DNA from: Emticicia aquatilis
Lineage (GTDB): Bacteria; Bacteroidota; Bacteroidia; Cytophagales; Spirosomataceae
Direction of reading: 5' to 3'
Assembly: GCF_014644295.1 (NCBI RefSeq)
Contig: NZ_BMKK01000009.1
Span: 1 to 64,000 of the forward strand
DNA: 64,000 bases
Every line of letters starts with the position of its first letter. Within the stretch, counting starts at the first letter, position 1. The position numbers were made by a program, and so were the translations under genes. The notes beneath the pieces are model-generated. The model did no database searches, was not told where the DNA came from, and saw only the letters and a list, made by a program, of their open reading frames with translations. Of this stretch, positions 5,401 to 52,428 are shown piece after piece.

Positions 5401-8400
5401 TAAGTATTGATTGTAATACCACTTAAAATACTGGCACTTAGAATATTTCCTACGGGCTGAACTGTGAAACCTGCGTAATATCCAGATGGATAATCGCTCA
5501 CAGTATCTTGAACCGAAATAGCAACTCCTCCACCAATAATTGATGCCCCAATGGTCATTTCAGCATAATCTCCAAGATTACCATTAACAACTGTCGAAGC
5601 AGCCGTTACACTACATCCAATACAAATACCTGTTCTGCTTGCATTAATTTTGGTAGTTCCGGCAGCTATTGGGTCATTACAAGCCCCATTTCCTTCAATT
5701 CCTGTTCCAGTTGTAGTCGTTACATAGGTTGTAGCAATCGCTTTACAACCATTTGCCGCCGTGACTGTCAATGTATATGTTCCGACTTTATCAGTACCCG
5801 CATTAGTTATTACTGGATTTTGTTGAGTCGAACTAAAGTTACTTGGTCCATTCCAAACATAAGTTCCTGTACCTGTTCCATACAAATTTAATGTTCCACC
5901 TGAAGTATATGGCGAATTTGAAGAAGCGGTTGCTGTAATTGTTGTAAGAATGGTAGCCGTTGCAGAAGCTCTTTGACTAACACAGCCATTTACTGTACAA
6001 TCAACATAATACGTTGTTGAACTACTAATAATTGGGGTAATGTATGAATCTCCAACACTGATACTTGTTCCGCCTGATGCTACGGTGTACCAATTATAAG
6101 TACCACTACATCCGCTGGCAGAAAGGGCAACCGCCCCCGAACCACATAAGGATGCACCAGTTGTAGTTGGAGCAGCAATGCTACTTACCACTACACTTGC
6201 AGTTGCCGTTGCACTACAAGCTGCTGCACTCGTTACTGTAACTGTATATGTACCCGCATTAACGAGTTGAGCATTGGCAATAGATGGAGTAGCCGAAGTA
6301 CTGGTAAATGAATTTGGTCCAGCCCACAAATATGTGCTTCCACCAGATGCACTCAATAAGATTGTTGCTCCAAGACATTCAGTATCGCCAGTTGCTGAGG
6401 CTGTCGGAATCGTATTTACTGTGGCTACGGCACTGTTTCTTGTCGTTGAAATACAGCCATTTAAACTACATTCTAAATAATAAGTCGTGGTTGTTGAGAT
6501 GCTTGGGCTTGTGTAAGTTACTCCTGTTGTCAGGGCTGTTCCGCCTGTTAAGGCTCCATACCATGAAATCGTTCCACCTGCACAACCACTTGCCGATAAA
6601 GTTACAGTTCCCGGTCCACAACGACTTGCTCCTGCACTTGTTGGGGTTGTTGGTATCGTATTCACTACAACACTCGCCGTAGCTGTCGCTGTACATCCGC
6701 CAGTTCCTGTAACTGTAACGGTGTAAACTCCTGCCATTGCTGTGGTCGCATTACTTATCGTTGGGTTTTGCAAAGTAGAGGTAAAACTACTTGGGCCACT
6801 CCATGAATAGGTGCTTCCACCACTTGATGCCAAAATTATTGTTGAACCCACACATTCTGTATCGCCAGTTGCTGAAGCGGTCGGAATCGTATTTACTGTG
6901 GCTACGGCACTATTTCTTGTCGTTGAGATACAGCCATTTAAACTACATTCTAAATAATAAGTCGTGGTTGATGAGATACTTGGGTTTGTGTATGTTGCTC
7001 CTGTTGTCAAGGCTGTTCCACCTGTTAAGGCTCCATACCATGAAATCGTTCCACCTGCACAACCACTTGCAGAAAGGGTCACCGTTCCTGGTCCACAACG
7101 ACTTGCTCCTGCACTTGTTGGAGCTGTTGGTATCGTATTCACTACAACATTTGCCGTGGCTGTCGCTGTACATCCGCCAGTTCCTGTAACTGTAACGGTG
7201 TAAACTCCTGCCATTGCTGTAGTCGCATTACTTATCGTCGGATTTTGCAAAGTAGAGGTAAAACTACTTGGGCCACTCCATGAATAAGTGCTTCCACCAC
7301 TTGAAGTTAGATTTATTGTTGAGCCTACACATACCGTTATACCTGTCGCTGAAGCGGTCGGAATCGTATTTACTGTGGCTACGGCACTATTTCTTGTCGT
7401 TGAGATACAGCCATTTAAACTACATTCTAAATAATAAGTCGTAGTTGCTGAGATACTTGGGCTTGTGTATGTTGCTCCTGTTGTCAAGGCTGTTCCGCCT
7501 GTTAAGGCTCCATACCATGAAATCGTTCCACCTGTACAACCACTTGCAGAAAGCGTCACCGTTCCTGTTCCGCAACGACTTGCTCCTGCACTTGTTGGGG
7601 TTGTTGGTATCGTATTTACTATAACACTCGCCGTAGCTGTCGCTGTACATCCGCCTACTCCTGTAACTGTAACGGTGTAAACTCCTGCCATTGCTGTGGT
7701 CGCATTACTTATCGTTGGATTTTGTAAAGTAGAGGTAAAACTACTTGGACCACTCCATGAATAAGTGCTTCCACCACTTGAAGTCAGATTTATTGTTGAG
7801 CCTACACAAACCGTTATACCTGTCGCTGAAGCGGTCGGAATCGTATTTGCTGTGGCTACGGCACTGTTTCTTGTCGTTGAGATACAGCCATTTAAACTAC
7901 ATTCTAAATAATAAGTCGTGGTTGTTGAGATGCTTGGGCTTGTGTAAGTTACTCCTGTTGTCAGGGCTGTTCCACCTGTTAAGGCTCCATACCATGAAAT
8001 CGTTCCACCTGCACAACCACTTGCAGAAAGGGTCACCGTTCCTGTTCCGCAACGACTTGCTCCTGCACTTGTTGGGGCGGTTGGTATCGTATTTACTATA
8101 ACAATCGCCGTAGCTGTCGCTGTACATCCGCCAGTTCCTGTAACTGTAACGGTGTAAACTCCTGCCATTGCAGTAGTCGCATTACTTATCGTTGGATTTT
8201 GTAAAGTAGAGGTAAAACTACTTGGGCCACTCCATGAATAGGTGCTTCCACCACTTGATGCCAAAATTATTGTTGAACCCACGCATTCTGTATCGCCAGT
8301 TGCTGAAGCGGTCGGAATCGTATTTACTGTGGCTACGGCACTATTTCTTGTCGTTGAGATACAGCCATTTAAACTACATTCTAAATAATAAGTCGTGGTT

Positions 8401-47579: not shown

Positions 47580-47700
47580 TATAATCCTAACATAGCCGAC
47601 CTTTAGTTTATTTCATGAAATTTACCATTCATATAAATTCTTTGTAAAAAAGGTAAATATTATGCTCATTTGCGGTTCATTTTTCAAGAAAATTACAAAA

Positions 47701-48282
47701 ATGAATCATTATTACGAAAAACTCTTCGATTATGTATCCGAAATTCTGATAATGCCAGAGTCGGACAAAGAGCTTTGTAGGCAATTATTTAAGCCTGTTT
47801 TTGTGCCAAAAGATACTATAATTGAAAAGGCGGGTACTGTGCATCAGAATCATACATTTATAGTTTCGGGGTTTATGCGGAACTTCTATCTTGATAAAGA
47901 TGGCAACGAAATCACTAATGACCTAAACGACGGCTCAAGGTTTTTTACTTCATATTTTAATTTTATGAATCGTACGGTTTCAAACGAAACCGTACATACT
48001 ATTACTGACTGTGAACTTCTACAAATCAGTCGAGATGATGTCGATATTGCAGCCAGTCAAGGTATCACACAAAAAGATTATACCGTTCAGATTTTAAATA
48101 AACGCTTGGAAATCAACAAACAACGGGCTTTTGATATGGCCAACTTAACAGCCGAAGAGCGTTATAATAAATTTATGAAAGAAAACCCTAATATCATTCG
48201 TCATGTGCCTTTGGGTTATATTGCTTCATTTTTAGGCATTACACAAAGACATTTGAGTAGGTTACGAAAAGAAAATAGGTAA
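47701..48282 (+). CDS. Crp/Fnr-family regulator (first of two)
   Basis: 193 residues from the ATG at 47701; an earlier ATG at 47662 adds 13 residues that do not align to the family. A cyclic-nucleotide-binding-like beta-barrel (VFVPKDTIIEKAGTVHQNH, FIVSGFMRNFYLDKDGNEIT) is followed by a dimer helix and a HTH with the recognition helix ITQRHLSRLRKENR. The phosphate-binding cassette of true cAMP receptors is absent and there is no FNR-type Cys cluster. The recognition helix has RHLSR, so it may bind a different box from its neighbour. It is 10 bp upstream of the second regulator. Confidence 0.88.
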   Translation: MNHYYEKLFDYVSEILIMPESDKELCRQLFKPVFVPKDTIIEKAGTVHQNHTFIVSGFMRNFYLDKDGNEITNDLNDGSRFFTSYFNFMNRTVSNETVHTITDCELLQISRDDVDIAASQGITQKDYTVQILNKRLEINKQRAFDMANLTAEERYNKFMKENPNIIRHVPLGYIASFLGITQRHLSRLRKENR

Positions 48283-48292
48283 AAACACAAAA

Positions 48293-48856
48293 ATGGCGAC
48301 TGAAATTTTAGAAAAAATTGGTTATTTCTCTGACAAAGACATTCAGCTTTTTGAAAAAAGTCTGTCCAAGCGAGTGGTTCAGAAAGGAGAGATTCTCCTC
48401 AAACAAGGTCAAATCTGTCAAACAGTATATTTTATTTCAAAAGGAGCGTTTTTAGAATACAATTTTAAAGATGAAATCGAACAGAATATTATTGATTTAT
48501 ACATTGAAAATGAATGGCTTCTGAATAAACAAAGTTTTGTCAGGCAAGAGCCTTCTGAAACCATCATCGAAGCATTTTCAGAAAGCGTTATTTTTAAGTT
48601 AGACATTCACTCTATCCATAATTTGATTGCCAACTCGCCTGCTTTTCTGCAACTGGGAAGTATTTTAGAGCCAGCCCATTCAAGAATTCAATTTTTTGAT
48701 AATTCTCTTAGCCCTTTGCAGAAATACCAATATCTACTCGAAAATCGTAGAGAGATTGTACAGGCTTTTCCATTGAAAATCATTGCTTCTTATCTAAAAA
48801 TAACGCCCGAAACCTTGAGTAGGGTTCGAGAAAAAATCACCAAAGGGCTTTCTTGA
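48293..48856 (+). CDS. Crp/Fnr-family regulator (second), with FNR-type recognition helix
   Basis: 187 residues. The sensor barrel is visible as VQKGEILLKQGQICQTVYFI, SKGAFLEYNF and ENEWLLNKQS. The HTH is PLKIIASYLKITPETLSRVR. Its ETLSR corresponds to the Glu-Ser-Arg residues of E. coli FNR that read TTGAT half-sites. The [4Fe-4S] cysteines of FNR are lacking (only one Cys is seen), so oxygen sensing by a cluster is unlikely and the signal is unknown. Its stop codon is inside a perfect FNR-type box (48852-48867), which suggests that it controls the genes downstream and perhaps its own 3' region. Confidence 0.88.
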   Translation: MATEILEKIGYFSDKDIQLFEKSLSKRVVQKGEILLKQGQICQTVYFISKGAFLEYNFKDEIEQNIIDLYIENEWLLNKQSFVRQEPSETIIEAFSESVIFKLDIHSIHNLIANSPAFLQLGSILEPAHSRIQFFDNSLSPLQKYQYLLENRREIVQAFPLKIIASYLKITPETLSRVREKITKGLS

Positions 48857-48867
48857 TTACAATCAAG
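48852..48867 (+). promoter_or_regulatory. FNR-type operator 1, with -7 element at 48890-48897
   Basis: CTTGATTACAATCAAG is a 16-bp palindrome containing TTGATnnnnATCAA, the E. coli FNR box consensus. TACTTTTA (48890-48897), one base from the -7 consensus TAnnTTTG, starts 30.5 bp after the palindrome centre. The operator would be centred about 44 bp before the start of transcription of the VOC gene. Confidence 0.75.
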
Positions 48868-48913
48868 TGCTTAAGTGAAAGTAACGCCGTACTTTTAGGA
48901 AAAAAATATATCA

Positions 48914-49285
48914 ATGGAACATAAAGCTATTTCTATCAGGCCATTTATTGGAGCCAAAAACTTTGAAATTTCCCGCAGTTTTTATCGTGACTTAGGATTT
49001 CAAGAAGTCGTTTTAGGTCATAATTTTTCTTATTTCAAAACCGAAAGTATCGGCTTTTATTTACAAGATGCCTATGTTAAAGATTGGATTGACAATTCAA
49101 TGATTTTTTTGGAAGTAGATGATACAGACCGCTATTACAACGAACTTTTAAGTCTAAATTTACCCCAAAAGTATGAGGGTGTAAGGCTAACGCCAGTCAA
49201 AGTGTTACCGTGGGGAAAAGAATGTTTTCTGCACGACCCATCAGGCATATTATGGCATTTTGGTGAATTTTTTAACAAAGGGTAA
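48914..49285 (+). CDS. VOC-superfamily (glyoxalase/bleomycin-resistance-like) protein
   Basis: 123 residues, a single VOC module pair. The opening IRPFIGAKNFEISRSFYRDL shows the beta-alpha-beta fold start, followed by FLEVDDTDRYYNELLSL and FLHDPSGILWHFGEFF, the classic end containing the metal or substrate-binding Asp/His/Glu pattern. It could be a glyoxalase-like enzyme or a binding protein for an antibiotic or small electrophile. Its promoter bears FNR-type box 1, and it is followed by FNR-type box 2. Confidence 0.85.
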   Translation: MEHKAISIRPFIGAKNFEISRSFYRDLGFQEVVLGHNFSYFKTESIGFYLQDAYVKDWIDNSMIFLEVDDTDRYYNELLSLNLPQKYEGVRLTPVKVLPWGKECFLHDPSGILWHFGEFFNKG

Positions 49286-49291
49286 GTCTTT

Positions 49292-49307
49292 CTTGATTAC
49301 AATCAAG
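49292..49307 (+). promoter_or_regulatory. FNR-type operator 2, with -7 element at 49330-49337
   Basis: The same CTTGATTACAATCAAG palindrome recurs seven bases after the VOC stop codon, with CTTT-flank and GTG-flank bases conserved too. TATTTTTG (49330-49337), a perfect -7 element, starts 30.5 bp after the centre, exactly as at operator 1. Transcription would begin near 49344, so the membrane protein must start at 49363 and not at 49315. Confidence 0.8.
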
Positions 49308-49362
49308 TGTAGGCTTGAAGATGAGCATCTATTTTTGTGGCATCACAAAAAATACATACTCA

Positions 49363-50001
49363 ATGAAAACAACATTCACAAAATTTGCAGGCTATTGTTT
49401 AGTTATTGGCTCAGTATTAATGATTCTGACGATGGTTTTGCACCCAGCTGGCGGAGACTTAGAGCATATCGTCAGCATTTCAAATGTGCTAATTATCAGT
49501 CATTCGATTGCTGTTTTTAGCGTACCATTCGTTGCTTTTGGCTTTTATGGTTTATCCGAAAACTTAACAACCAATAACCGACTCTCCTATTTGGGCTTTG
49601 CTTTTATTGTATTTGCATTGTTTGCTGCAATGATGGCCGCTTCAATCAATGGATTGATATTACCGATGTATGCTTCAAAGTTTTCGACCGAATCTGGGCA
49701 AAATCTCGAAAATGTAAAGCTAATTATCAGTTACGGTTCTAAATTCAACAAAGCAATGGATTATATTTTTATCTGGGGGTATTCGATTGCTATGTTTATT
49801 TGGTCAGTAATCATTATTCAAACCTCAAAGCTGCCTCGTTGGATTGGCTTTTACGGTTTTATTCTTTTGGCATTCGTACTTCTTGGATTTTTGTTAGAAT
49901 ATAACTTTATCAGCGTTTGGGGATTCAGAATTTACATTTTCGGAATTGTCAGTTGGATAGTACTTGCGGGCATTTTTATGACTTCAAAAAGAAGCTTCTG
50001 A
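49363..50001 (+). CDS. Six-helix membrane protein under an FNR-type box
   Basis: 212 residues from the ATG at 49363, chosen because the predicted transcription start (about 49344) lies between it and the upstream frame start at 49315. It has six hydrophobic segments: FAGYCLVIGSVLMILTMVLH, LIISHSIAVFSVPFVAFGFY, LGFAFIVFALFAAMMAASIN, YIFIWGYSIAMFIWSVIII, WIGFYGFILLAFVLLGFLLE and FGIVSWIVLAGIF. A conserved-looking HPAGGD follows the first helix. It resembles uncharacterised DUF4386-type membrane proteins of Bacteroidota; no function can be stated. Confidence 0.78.
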   Translation: MKTTFTKFAGYCLVIGSVLMILTMVLHPAGGDLEHIVSISNVLIISHSIAVFSVPFVAFGFYGLSENLTTNNRLSYLGFAFIVFALFAAMMAASINGLILPMYASKFSTESGQNLENVKLIISYGSKFNKAMDYIFIWGYSIAMFIWSVIIIQTSKLPRWIGFYGFILLAFVLLGFLLEYNFISVWGFRIYIFGIVSWIVLAGIFMTSKRSF

Positions 50002-51544: not shown

Positions 51545-51595
51545 GCATAAAGAATAGCTCATTAGTTTTGAAAAACAAAACGCTATTCTTTATGC
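51545..51595 (+). promoter_or_regulatory. Perfect hairpin that buries the start codon of the DUF2306 gene
   Basis: GCATAAAGAATAGC (51545-51558) pairs perfectly with GCTATTCTTTATGC (51582-51595), and the ATG at 51592-51594 lies inside the right arm. The loop holds a second hairpin, GTTTTG / CAAAAC. No T-run follows, so it is not a terminator. It may control translation by hiding the ribosome-binding region. Confidence 0.6.
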
Positions 51596-52428
51596 AAAAA
51601 GACACTCTACCTCTCGAAAAAACTACCGAACAGGTTAGTTACAATCCAAAACTATTGAATTTATCAGCAAAATTTTGGTTCATCATTGCCACCATTGGAC
51701 AATGGATTTTTGGCTTTTATGTAGTTTCGGTTTATCATGTCTCAACTTTCAAAGGCAACTTTGAAAAATGGAATACTGTACTTCCAAAAGGCTATGTTGC
51801 GGGCGACTGGAAAGGAAATTTGATGGTCGGCATTCATGTAATTTTAGCCGCAATTATGATAATCGGTGGCCCCTTACAATTTATTCCGCAGATTCGTGAG
51901 CGGCTACCGAATTTTCATCGTTGGTTGGGTAGAATTTATGTTATCACAGCCATTGTAGTTAGTTCGGCGGGGTTCATTATGGTCTGGACACGTGGCACGG
52001 TTGGTGATACTTTTATGCACATAACCAACAGTATTCAAGTCATTTATATTATATTTTTTGCCATTCAAACAATCAGATTTGCTCAAAAACGGCTAATAAA
52101 GCAACACCGAATGTCTGCACTTCGCCTTTTTATGGTAGCCAATGGGGTTTGGTTTTTCAGAGTTGGTCTAATGGCTTGGTTGGTTATCAATCAATCTGCG
52201 GTTGGGTTTGACCCAGAAACTTTTACAGGGCCATTCTTGTGGGTATTATCTACTTTCGCTTATGCAGTTCCTATCTCTTTGATTTTACTTGAAATGTATT
52301 TCTATGCTCAAAAAATGAAACGACAAACCTTTTCTAACCTTACCGCAAGCATTATTTTCTTATTTACAATTATTATGGCAGTCGGGATTTTTGGAGCAAC
52401 AATGGGAATGTGGCTACCAAGAATCTAA
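51592..52428 (+). CDS. DUF2306 multi-pass membrane protein
   Basis: 278 residues from the ATG at 51592; the longer frame begins with a TTG at 51568 in the hairpin loop. About seven membrane helices are visible (WFIIATIGQWIFGFYVVSVY, VGIHVILAAIMIIGGPLQFI and others). The DUF2306 signature HVILAAIMIIGGPLQF-IP-RERLPNFHRWLGRIY is present, with conserved His residues that may bind haem or metal, and a second His/Arg motif QHRMSALRLFMVANGVWFFR. Function of DUF2306 is unknown. Confidence 0.82.
   Translation: MQKDTLPLEKTTEQVSYNPKLLNLSAKFWFIIATIGQWIFGFYVVSVYHVSTFKGNFEKWNTVLPKGYVAGDWKGNLMVGIHVILAAIMIIGGPLQFIPQIRERLPNFHRWLGRIYVITAIVVSSAGFIMVWTRGTVGDTFMHITNSIQVIYIIFFAIQTIRFAQKRLIKQHRMSALRLFMVANGVWFFRVGLMAWLVINQSAVGFDPETFTGPFLWVLSTFAYAVPISLILLEMYFYAQKMKRQTFSNLTASIIFLFTIIMAVGIFGATMGMWLPRI

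Follow-up and report, generated by a model that had tools for sequence, protein, structure and literature searches.

Tandem Crp/Fnr-type regulators of Emticicia aquatilis as predicted local activators, and a recurrent regulator-operator-promoter layout in the Spirosomataceae

Two identical palindromes behind a pair of tandem Crp/Fnr-type regulator genes raise the questions of which protein reads them, to what effect, and whether the arrangement is peculiar to this locus. The locus lies in a stretch of 64,000 nucleotides, here called the window (positions 1 to 64,000 of contig NZ_BMKK01000009.1), from the 6.75-Mb genome of Emticicia aquatilis, a member of the Spirosomataceae, the host family in the following. 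The features under study are collected in Table 1.

Table 1. Regulators, predicted operators, promoter elements and predicted target genes at the locus (window coordinates; TSS, predicted transcription start)
Feature	Position	Strand	Remark
CrpA, Crp/Fnr-type regulator	47704..48282	+	PF00027; helix TQRHLSR; 29 other loci at 65-93 % identity
CrpB, Crp/Fnr-type regulator	48293..48856	+	PF00027; helix TPETLSR; single Cys42
Operator 1 (predicted), CTTGATTACAATCAAG	48852..48867	+	exact copy; overlaps crpB stop codon
-7 element of VOC-like gene, TACTTTTA	48890..48897	+	22 nt after operator 1; predicted TSS ~48902
VOC-superfamily (glyoxalase/bleomycin-binding-like) protein, predicted target 1	48914..49285	+	weak PF00903, NCBIfam BLMA-type
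Operator 2 (predicted), CTTGATTACAATCAAG	49292..49307	+	exact copy
-7 element of membrane-protein gene, TATTTTTG	49330..49337	+	22 nt after operator 2; predicted TSS ~49342
Hydrophobic protein, probably membrane, predicted target 2	49363..50001	+	HPxGG motif; invariant His27, His47
CrpA operator (predicted), TAGGACATTTGTCTAA	51525..51540	+	same box behind CrpA orthologs; 3.2 kb downstream
-7 element of DUF2306 gene, TAGTTTTG	51563..51570	+	22 nt after CrpA operator; predicted TSS ~51575
DUF2306 membrane protein, predicted CrpA target	51592..52428	+	PF10067 E 1.6e-11

The two regulators follow each other in the order CrpA, CrpB. Both contained a cNMP-binding-type domain (PF00027 above the cut-off), the helix-turn-helix parts had no match in Pfam. 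The start of CrpA was set at MNHYYEK; an alternative ATG further upstream in the open frame is at 47662. The affiliation to the Crp/Fnr superfamily is based on PF00027 in both proteins and on a near full-length alignment of CrpB to 3DN7 and DNR. The initial annotation, made from the letters of the DNA, had credited the regulator upstream of the boxes with the ETLSR residues of FNR and with a lack of FNR-type Fe-S cysteines. Both observations were confirmed: CrpB contains the sequence ITPETLSRVRE, with P172, E173, T174, S176 and R177 invariant in an alignment of 18 sequences, and the helix residues named correlate with an operator base across paralogs (see below). FNR carries four cysteines for its Fe-S cluster, CrpB has a single one (C42). 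As a candidate sensor Cys42 was set aside, it was absent in two of the 18 aligned CrpB-like sequences. The E..SR helix, together with the predicted operator TTGAT-N4-ATCAA, points to an operator recognition of the FNR/DNR type. CrpA and CrpB included, the genome codes for 22 Crp/Fnr-like proteins at E 0.01 or better.

Both 16-mers were present exactly at the positions first noted, 48852-48867 and 49292-49307, and the conservation of flanking bases extended to a block of 22 bp (CTTTCTTGATTACAATCAAGTG, at 48848-48869 and 49288-49309), beyond which the sequences differ. Between each box and its -7 element, TACTTTTA or TATTTTTG, lie 22 nt, in agreement with the distance of 30.5 bp given for the box centres. 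TTGATTACAATCAA occurred exactly twice in the 6.75-Mb assembly, both times at these boxes, and the 14-bp core of CTTGATTACAATCAAG had no further exact copy genome-wide; the chance expectation for the 16-mer was ~0.009 from composition. At up to three mismatches the box showed no excess in the window (18 found, 19.7 expected), thus only the exact pair stands out. In the whole genome, TTGAT-N4-ATCAA was found at 41 sites versus 13 in the control, an excess of loose matches that counts against CrpB as a local regulator, and the box at up to two mismatches gave 148/133 matches versus 61/58. Requirement of TANNTTT at 21-25 nt left four places including both window sites (control one). For the box followed by TANNTTTG at 22 nt, 38 matches (15/23) with up to three mismatches were obtained versus 11 (6/5) in the control. 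The window pair alone reached 0 or 1 mismatch; the other 36 of 38, L198 with two mismatches among them, had two or three. The genome scan proposed for the box upstream of a -7 element at the same spacing thus returned the window pair alone at this stringency, and because no other site came so close the regulon looks local.

A recent local duplication or a mobile repeat might also have produced two copies that are identical over 22 bp. We consider this origin hardly conceivable: the identity stops at 22 bp, the genome has only the two exact copies, a relative with 86 % identity in CrpB has TTGATTAGAATCAA and TTGATTACAATCAA at the two places, and four other loci carry two boxes that differ from each other.

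The box accompanies CrpB-like regulators. Eighteen loci with at least 41 % identity to CrpB (L009-L026, the window's own included) were collected from 150 genomes. Seventeen of them had TTGAT-N4-ATCAA where the regulator gene ends, and the copy in L023 had one arm mismatch; the conserved copies in relatives that the proposed regulon called for were present. At 22 nt after the box, an octamer of the form NANNTTT(G/A) was found in each of the 18. By sequence likeness, the next gene coded for the membrane protein in eight loci and the VOC-like protein in eight; L023 had a GrpB-like protein there, and L020 an unrelated frame. In four loci (L017, L147, L151, L162) the order was box, VOC, crpB, box, membrane protein, each box 22 nt before a -7-like element. 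This gene order differs from that of the window, yet both boxes are present, hence they were kept through reordering. The predicted compact regulon of one regulator, its operators and two targets is supported by this recurrence of the two-target set in another gene order.

The spacing was narrow in its range. CTTGAT-N4-ATCAAG followed after 12-32 nt by TANNTTTG was searched in 222 host-family genomes, with the reversed pattern as control. Twenty-six sites in 23 genomes were obtained (control one). The spacing was 22 nt in 21 of them and 21 nt in the remaining five; the other 19 spacings allowed between 12 and 32 nt had no site in the 222 genomes. A Crp/Fnr gene was within 1.5 kb of 23 of the 26 sites, the remaining three precede a VOC-like gene. 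For the 22-nt sites the neighbour within 1.5 kb was CrpB-like in 18 of 21, the other three having the VOC-like gene downstream. All five 21-nt sites (L138, L142, L145, L150, L161) were behind a different Crp/Fnr gene of 28-29 % identity and had other targets. The next gene at these sites was YdjM-like (below the cut-off) in L138 and coded for a DUF4345 protein in L145. A phylum sample of 395 genomes contained 14 sites of box and -7 element, 8 of them at 21-22 nt (control two). Among the 13 sites outside this genome, seven had 21-22 nt and six another spacing; a Crp/Fnr gene, as detected by the queries used, preceded four of the former and none of the latter. One of these four, a locus of another family (L165), had CrpB at 57 % identity, the membrane protein and the VOC-like protein together. 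In other families of the sample, two of four CrpB-like loci passed the strict palindrome test described below, L307 had a weaker box and L308 none. Conservation of box, position and spacing across genera and families supports the prediction that the adjacent regulator uses the boxes as its operators.

Real operators may serve mainly another of the 22 Crp/Fnr-like proteins, or be shared with it. The same genome contains L189 (G000:C7, about 148387-148402), a regulator with the helix PETFSR that is followed by a nearly identical box, CTTGATTTTTATCAAG, 21 nt from GACCTTTG, and E..SR helices go with TTGAT or TTGAC. We regard a foreign main user as unlikely, since the box is physically linked to CrpB-like genes across genera with different gene orders, and since L189 and the five sites behind the other Crp/Fnr gene have 21 nt where the CrpB clade has 22 nt. 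Cross-talk between CrpB and L189 is possible.

The predicted targets of CrpB had few affiliations. The VOC-like protein matched PF00903 (E 0.009) and an NCBIfam model of the BLMA type (E 3.4e-9), both below curated cut-offs. Its homologs shared 68-93 % identity among the best 80 of 460 loci found; an Emticicia metagenome bin was the nearest named relative of the region (93 %, VOC-like protein). Within ~80 nt before the homolog, TTGAT-N4-ATCAA was found in only five of these best 80 (L039, L053, L074, L096, L116), the VOC gene is thus not usually part of such a regulon. A CrpB-like gene was beside three of the five (L039, L074, L116). For the membrane protein, HPxGG and the invariant H27 and H47 were present in 13 aligned sequences, and one homolog had a weak DUF4386 match below the curated cut-off. 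The start at 49363, originally set by the promoter pattern, is consistent with an alignment of 12 homologs whose starts were picked by the analyst. As a guess, CrpB may respond to a small compound, reactive or foreign, on which the VOC-like protein acts.

CrpA appears to have its own operator. By eye, TTGGACATTTGTCTAA was spotted behind CrpA orthologs in L040 and L041. A window search with TAGAC-N4-GTCTA gave no excess (15 found, 18.8 expected), and one match was upstream of the DUF2306 gene. In combination with its -7 element, TAGGACATTTGTCTAA was the only such site of the genome with fewer than three mismatches. The comparison was extended to the 30 best CrpA loci in 222 genomes, ten further rows at 60-67 % identity were left out. 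Only in this genome and in a near relative (G128) was crpB located between CrpA and the operator (2 of 30). The operator was present in all 28 other relatives, 27 by the standard search and L342 by a looser pattern, and in 26 of 28 DUF2306 came after CrpA and operator in that order. A -7-like element followed at 21 or 22 nt in 26 of the 27 loci read (exception L343; L336 left out). The strict palindrome test detected only 12 of the 30 CrpA loci, because the CrpA operator is an imperfect palindrome. The order CrpA-operator-DUF2306 in relatives reveals the arrangement of the window as a CrpB module inside a CrpA unit, into which the module was presumably inserted.

Two further observations concern this unit. 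In L339 (about 2083-2690) a frame of 107 residues separates crpA from the operator, which stays with DUF2306. An inverted repeat of 25 nt, 80 % complementary (51545-51569 / 51571-51595), encloses the DUF2306 -7 element and extends as far as the start codon; its outer 14 bp (GCATAAAGAATAGC/GCTATTCTTTATGC) are perfect, and the outer arms are also present in the Emticicia relative L039.

Other Crp/Fnr paralogs of the same genome were followed by different palindromes at the same spacing, e.g., ATTGACTTAGGTCAAT, TTTAACTTGGGTTAAA and CTTAAACCAGTTTAAG. Nine of the 21 genome paralogs other than CrpB had such a palindrome with at least 5 of 6 arm pairs. A strict test was defined that required, behind the regulator, a 16-mer palindrome with at least 5/6 arm pairs and ANNTTTG following it at 21 or 22 nt. 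Eighty further host-family paralogs were fetched. Of 131 loci, eight were dropped (L035, L184, L190, L191, L193, L245, L256, L258), five of which (L184, L190, L191, L256, L258) have a palindrome of at least 5/6, and the set was reduced to 84 with less than 70 % mutual identity. The strict test was passed by 30 of the 84 regulators and by 21 of the 73 outside the CrpB clade, for which about 0.6 were expected. The same 73 paralogs yielded a mean of 0.32 loci at any other spacing and a count of 1 in the control upstream of the genes. Behind 305 non-Crp genes, 2 and 2 cases were counted at 21 and 22 nt versus 0.82 per other spacing. With the window locus added to the 30, all but one of the 31 strict cases had the operator start at -10 to +35 relative to the stop codon; a codirectional frame starting within 160 nt of the -7 element was likewise seen in 30 of 31, a figure without baseline.

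Some results count against a wider layout or limit its range. Outside the CrpB clade the strict test was failed by 52 of the 73 host-family paralogs. The 131 loci include 15 with the helix TKETLSR, of which not one passed, though this helix also reads E..SR. Elsewhere in the phylum sample, in families other than the host family, 23 Crp loci had less than 40 % identity and only three of them passed; one odd reading frame (L312) was retained among the loci tested there. Because of this rarity the general layout is claimed for the host family only, in which the predicted succession of regulator gene, private operator at the stop codon, 21-22 nt, -7 element and target is recurrent. Some TKETLSR loci, a subfamily with, e.g., L028, L030 and L227, have TCATC-like half-sites 40-60 nt behind the gene.

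Across the paralogs, palindrome and recognition helix are correlated. For this comparison, the operators were located without use of the protein sequence. With a grouping by E plus R that was picked after the helix-operator table had been inspected, the fourth of the 16 operator bases was G, in both halves, for 22 of 22 E..SR helices versus 1 of 9 others among the strict cases (p 1e-6), and for 12 of 12 versus 1 of 9 without the CrpB clade (p 4e-5). E alone gave 22/25 versus 1/6 (p 0.002). An R before the E coincided with G at position 2 in at least one half-site (3/3 versus 2/28, p 0.002), in both half-sites the numbers were 1/3 versus 0/28 (p 0.10). G at the second position is as in TGTGA of CRP. 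Addition of weaker palindromes changed the counts to 24/27 versus 2/13 for E..SR with G in both halves and to 4/5 versus 2/35 for R with G in at least one half. Since the loci are related, the p-values are only a guide. Such a covariation is already in print: passages of the study by Rodionov and colleagues report that in several Crp/Fnr groups the operator bases correlate with positions 180 and 181 of CRP (PMC1274295).

The position of the boxes at gene ends would also suit RNA hairpins or terminators in place of DNA operators. The 16-mer folds at -3.2 kcal/mol (z -5.7), box 2 with flanks at -10.9 (z -3.1) and box 1 with flanks at -7.4 (z -1.2). A terminator-like site was not found, the distance to the downstream -7 element is fixed, and the box sequence correlates with the recognition helix; on these grounds the RNA reading was rejected as very improbable. 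A search of the window in Rfam at gathering thresholds had no match.

The promoter geometry was deduced from the -7 element. If it spans -12 to -5, as described in passages on Flavobacterium psychrophilum (PMC9723704), the box centre falls on -42.5 with a spacing of 22 nt and on -41.5 with 21 nt; the position near -44 given for the window boxes had to be corrected to -42.5. A -33 element is described for Bacteroides, and none could be identified in Flavobacterium johnsoniae according to passages of PMC7366714. TTG at 17-23 nt before the -7 element was absent in 40 sites, a weak result as the box fills most of the interval and no -33 motif could be identified in F. johnsoniae. In class II promoters of CRP and FNR the site is centred near -41.5 and overlaps the -35/-33 region, close to the centres predicted here. 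A fixed spacing over different operators fits an activator touching RNA polymerase.

Comparison of the loci showed the conservation of the predicted operators, the exact spacing and the correlation between operator and helix. Beyond these, we infer binding, activation over repression, the dimer state and the presence of a signal. CrpB would be a ligand- or state-gated homodimer of the Crp/Fnr type that lacks an Fe-S cluster. Its recognition helix PETLSR would read the TTGAT half-sites. CrpB would bind both CTTGAT-N4-ATCAAG boxes, the one that follows crpB and the one in front of the next gene, with centres ~42.5 bp ahead of the predicted transcription starts, in the place expected of a -33 element. 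By a contact of the class II type with RNA polymerase, CrpB may activate two short transcripts, for the VOC-like and the membrane protein, and CrpA may likewise activate the DUF2306 gene via TAGGACATTTGTCTAA. To this reading as a whole, with CrpB and CrpA as class II-type local activators and cases of a recurrent host-family layout, we assign a probability of about 0.8. Alternatively, CrpB binds the boxes and represses both genes by blocking RNA polymerase near -42, until a ligand releases it. Crp/Fnr proteins can repress and the boxes directly abut the promoters; however, the spacing between box and -7 element is fixed within 1 nt over different operators, a constancy that is needed for activation but not for blocking. 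Repression is thus rather unlikely.

Beyond local activation by CrpB and CrpA, it seems fairly probable that many Crp/Fnr paralogs of the host family are portable modules with one input and one output. In each, the regulator would bring along an operator of its own at the stop codon and, at a constant 21-22 nt, a class II promoter that serves the next gene. Recognition helices and their operators would have diverged jointly, leaving a readable protein-DNA code across the paralogs, and modules could be nested, as the CrpB module between CrpA and its operator-DUF2306 unit, where the operator stayed with its target. Boxes, regulator and targets of the regulon first proposed were supported, the proposal itself was extended by the operator of CrpA and by the recurrence among paralogs.

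Among known systems, DNR, an NO-responsive Crp/Fnr activator of denitrification, has a site consensus, CTTGATnnnnATCAAG, that is identical to the CrpB box, and DNR proteins have no FNR-type cysteines, as far as passages of PMC1274295 state. The DNR chain has the helix PETFSR in the alignment with CrpB. Similarity of DNR to CrpB is marginal (phmmer E 0.0036), far weaker than that of 3DN7, and denitrification genes were not recognised among the neighbouring targets of box sites. The Crp-like 3DN7 is the best solved relative of CrpB by sequence (E 8e-16), its helix PEYLSE goes with CTTAAACCAGTTTAAG in four of four loci and not with TTGAT. In class II promoters of Escherichia coli FNR, the half-sites of TTGAT-N4-ATCAA are read by E..SR, with the site near -41.5. 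CrpB resembles this FNR in its helix and in the predicted half-sites and site position, and differs by its single Cys. HcpR, PgRsp and CrpPg of Porphyromonas gingivalis belong, like CrpB, to the Bacteroidota members of the superfamily. CrpPg binds DNA without cAMP, and the passages of PMC12040651 describe no operator behind the regulator gene for any of the three. The HcpR consensus in Desulfovibrio is CRP-like, TGTGA, in passages of PMC1274295. Among the matches listed, the open-access literature had nothing on the CrpB box, on CrpB or CrpA regulons or on operators behind Bacteroidota Crp/Fnr genes.

Host-family genomes contain many Crp/Fnr regulators, and with an operator beside the main target this target may be readable from sequence alone. 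The varied pairs of helix and operator present a natural data set for the choice of DNA by Crp/Fnr proteins and may be of use for non-interfering regulator-promoter pairs in Bacteroidota. The layout predicts positions of transcription starts and offers two concrete regulons for a search of signals, CrpB with the VOC-like and the membrane protein and CrpA with DUF2306. Apart from this locus, TAAACTACATTCTA was observed five times in the window at steps of exactly 477 nt (6462, 6939, 7416, 7893 and 8370; window 6462-8383), a periodicity that suggests a tandem repeat, perhaps in a gene for a repetitive protein.
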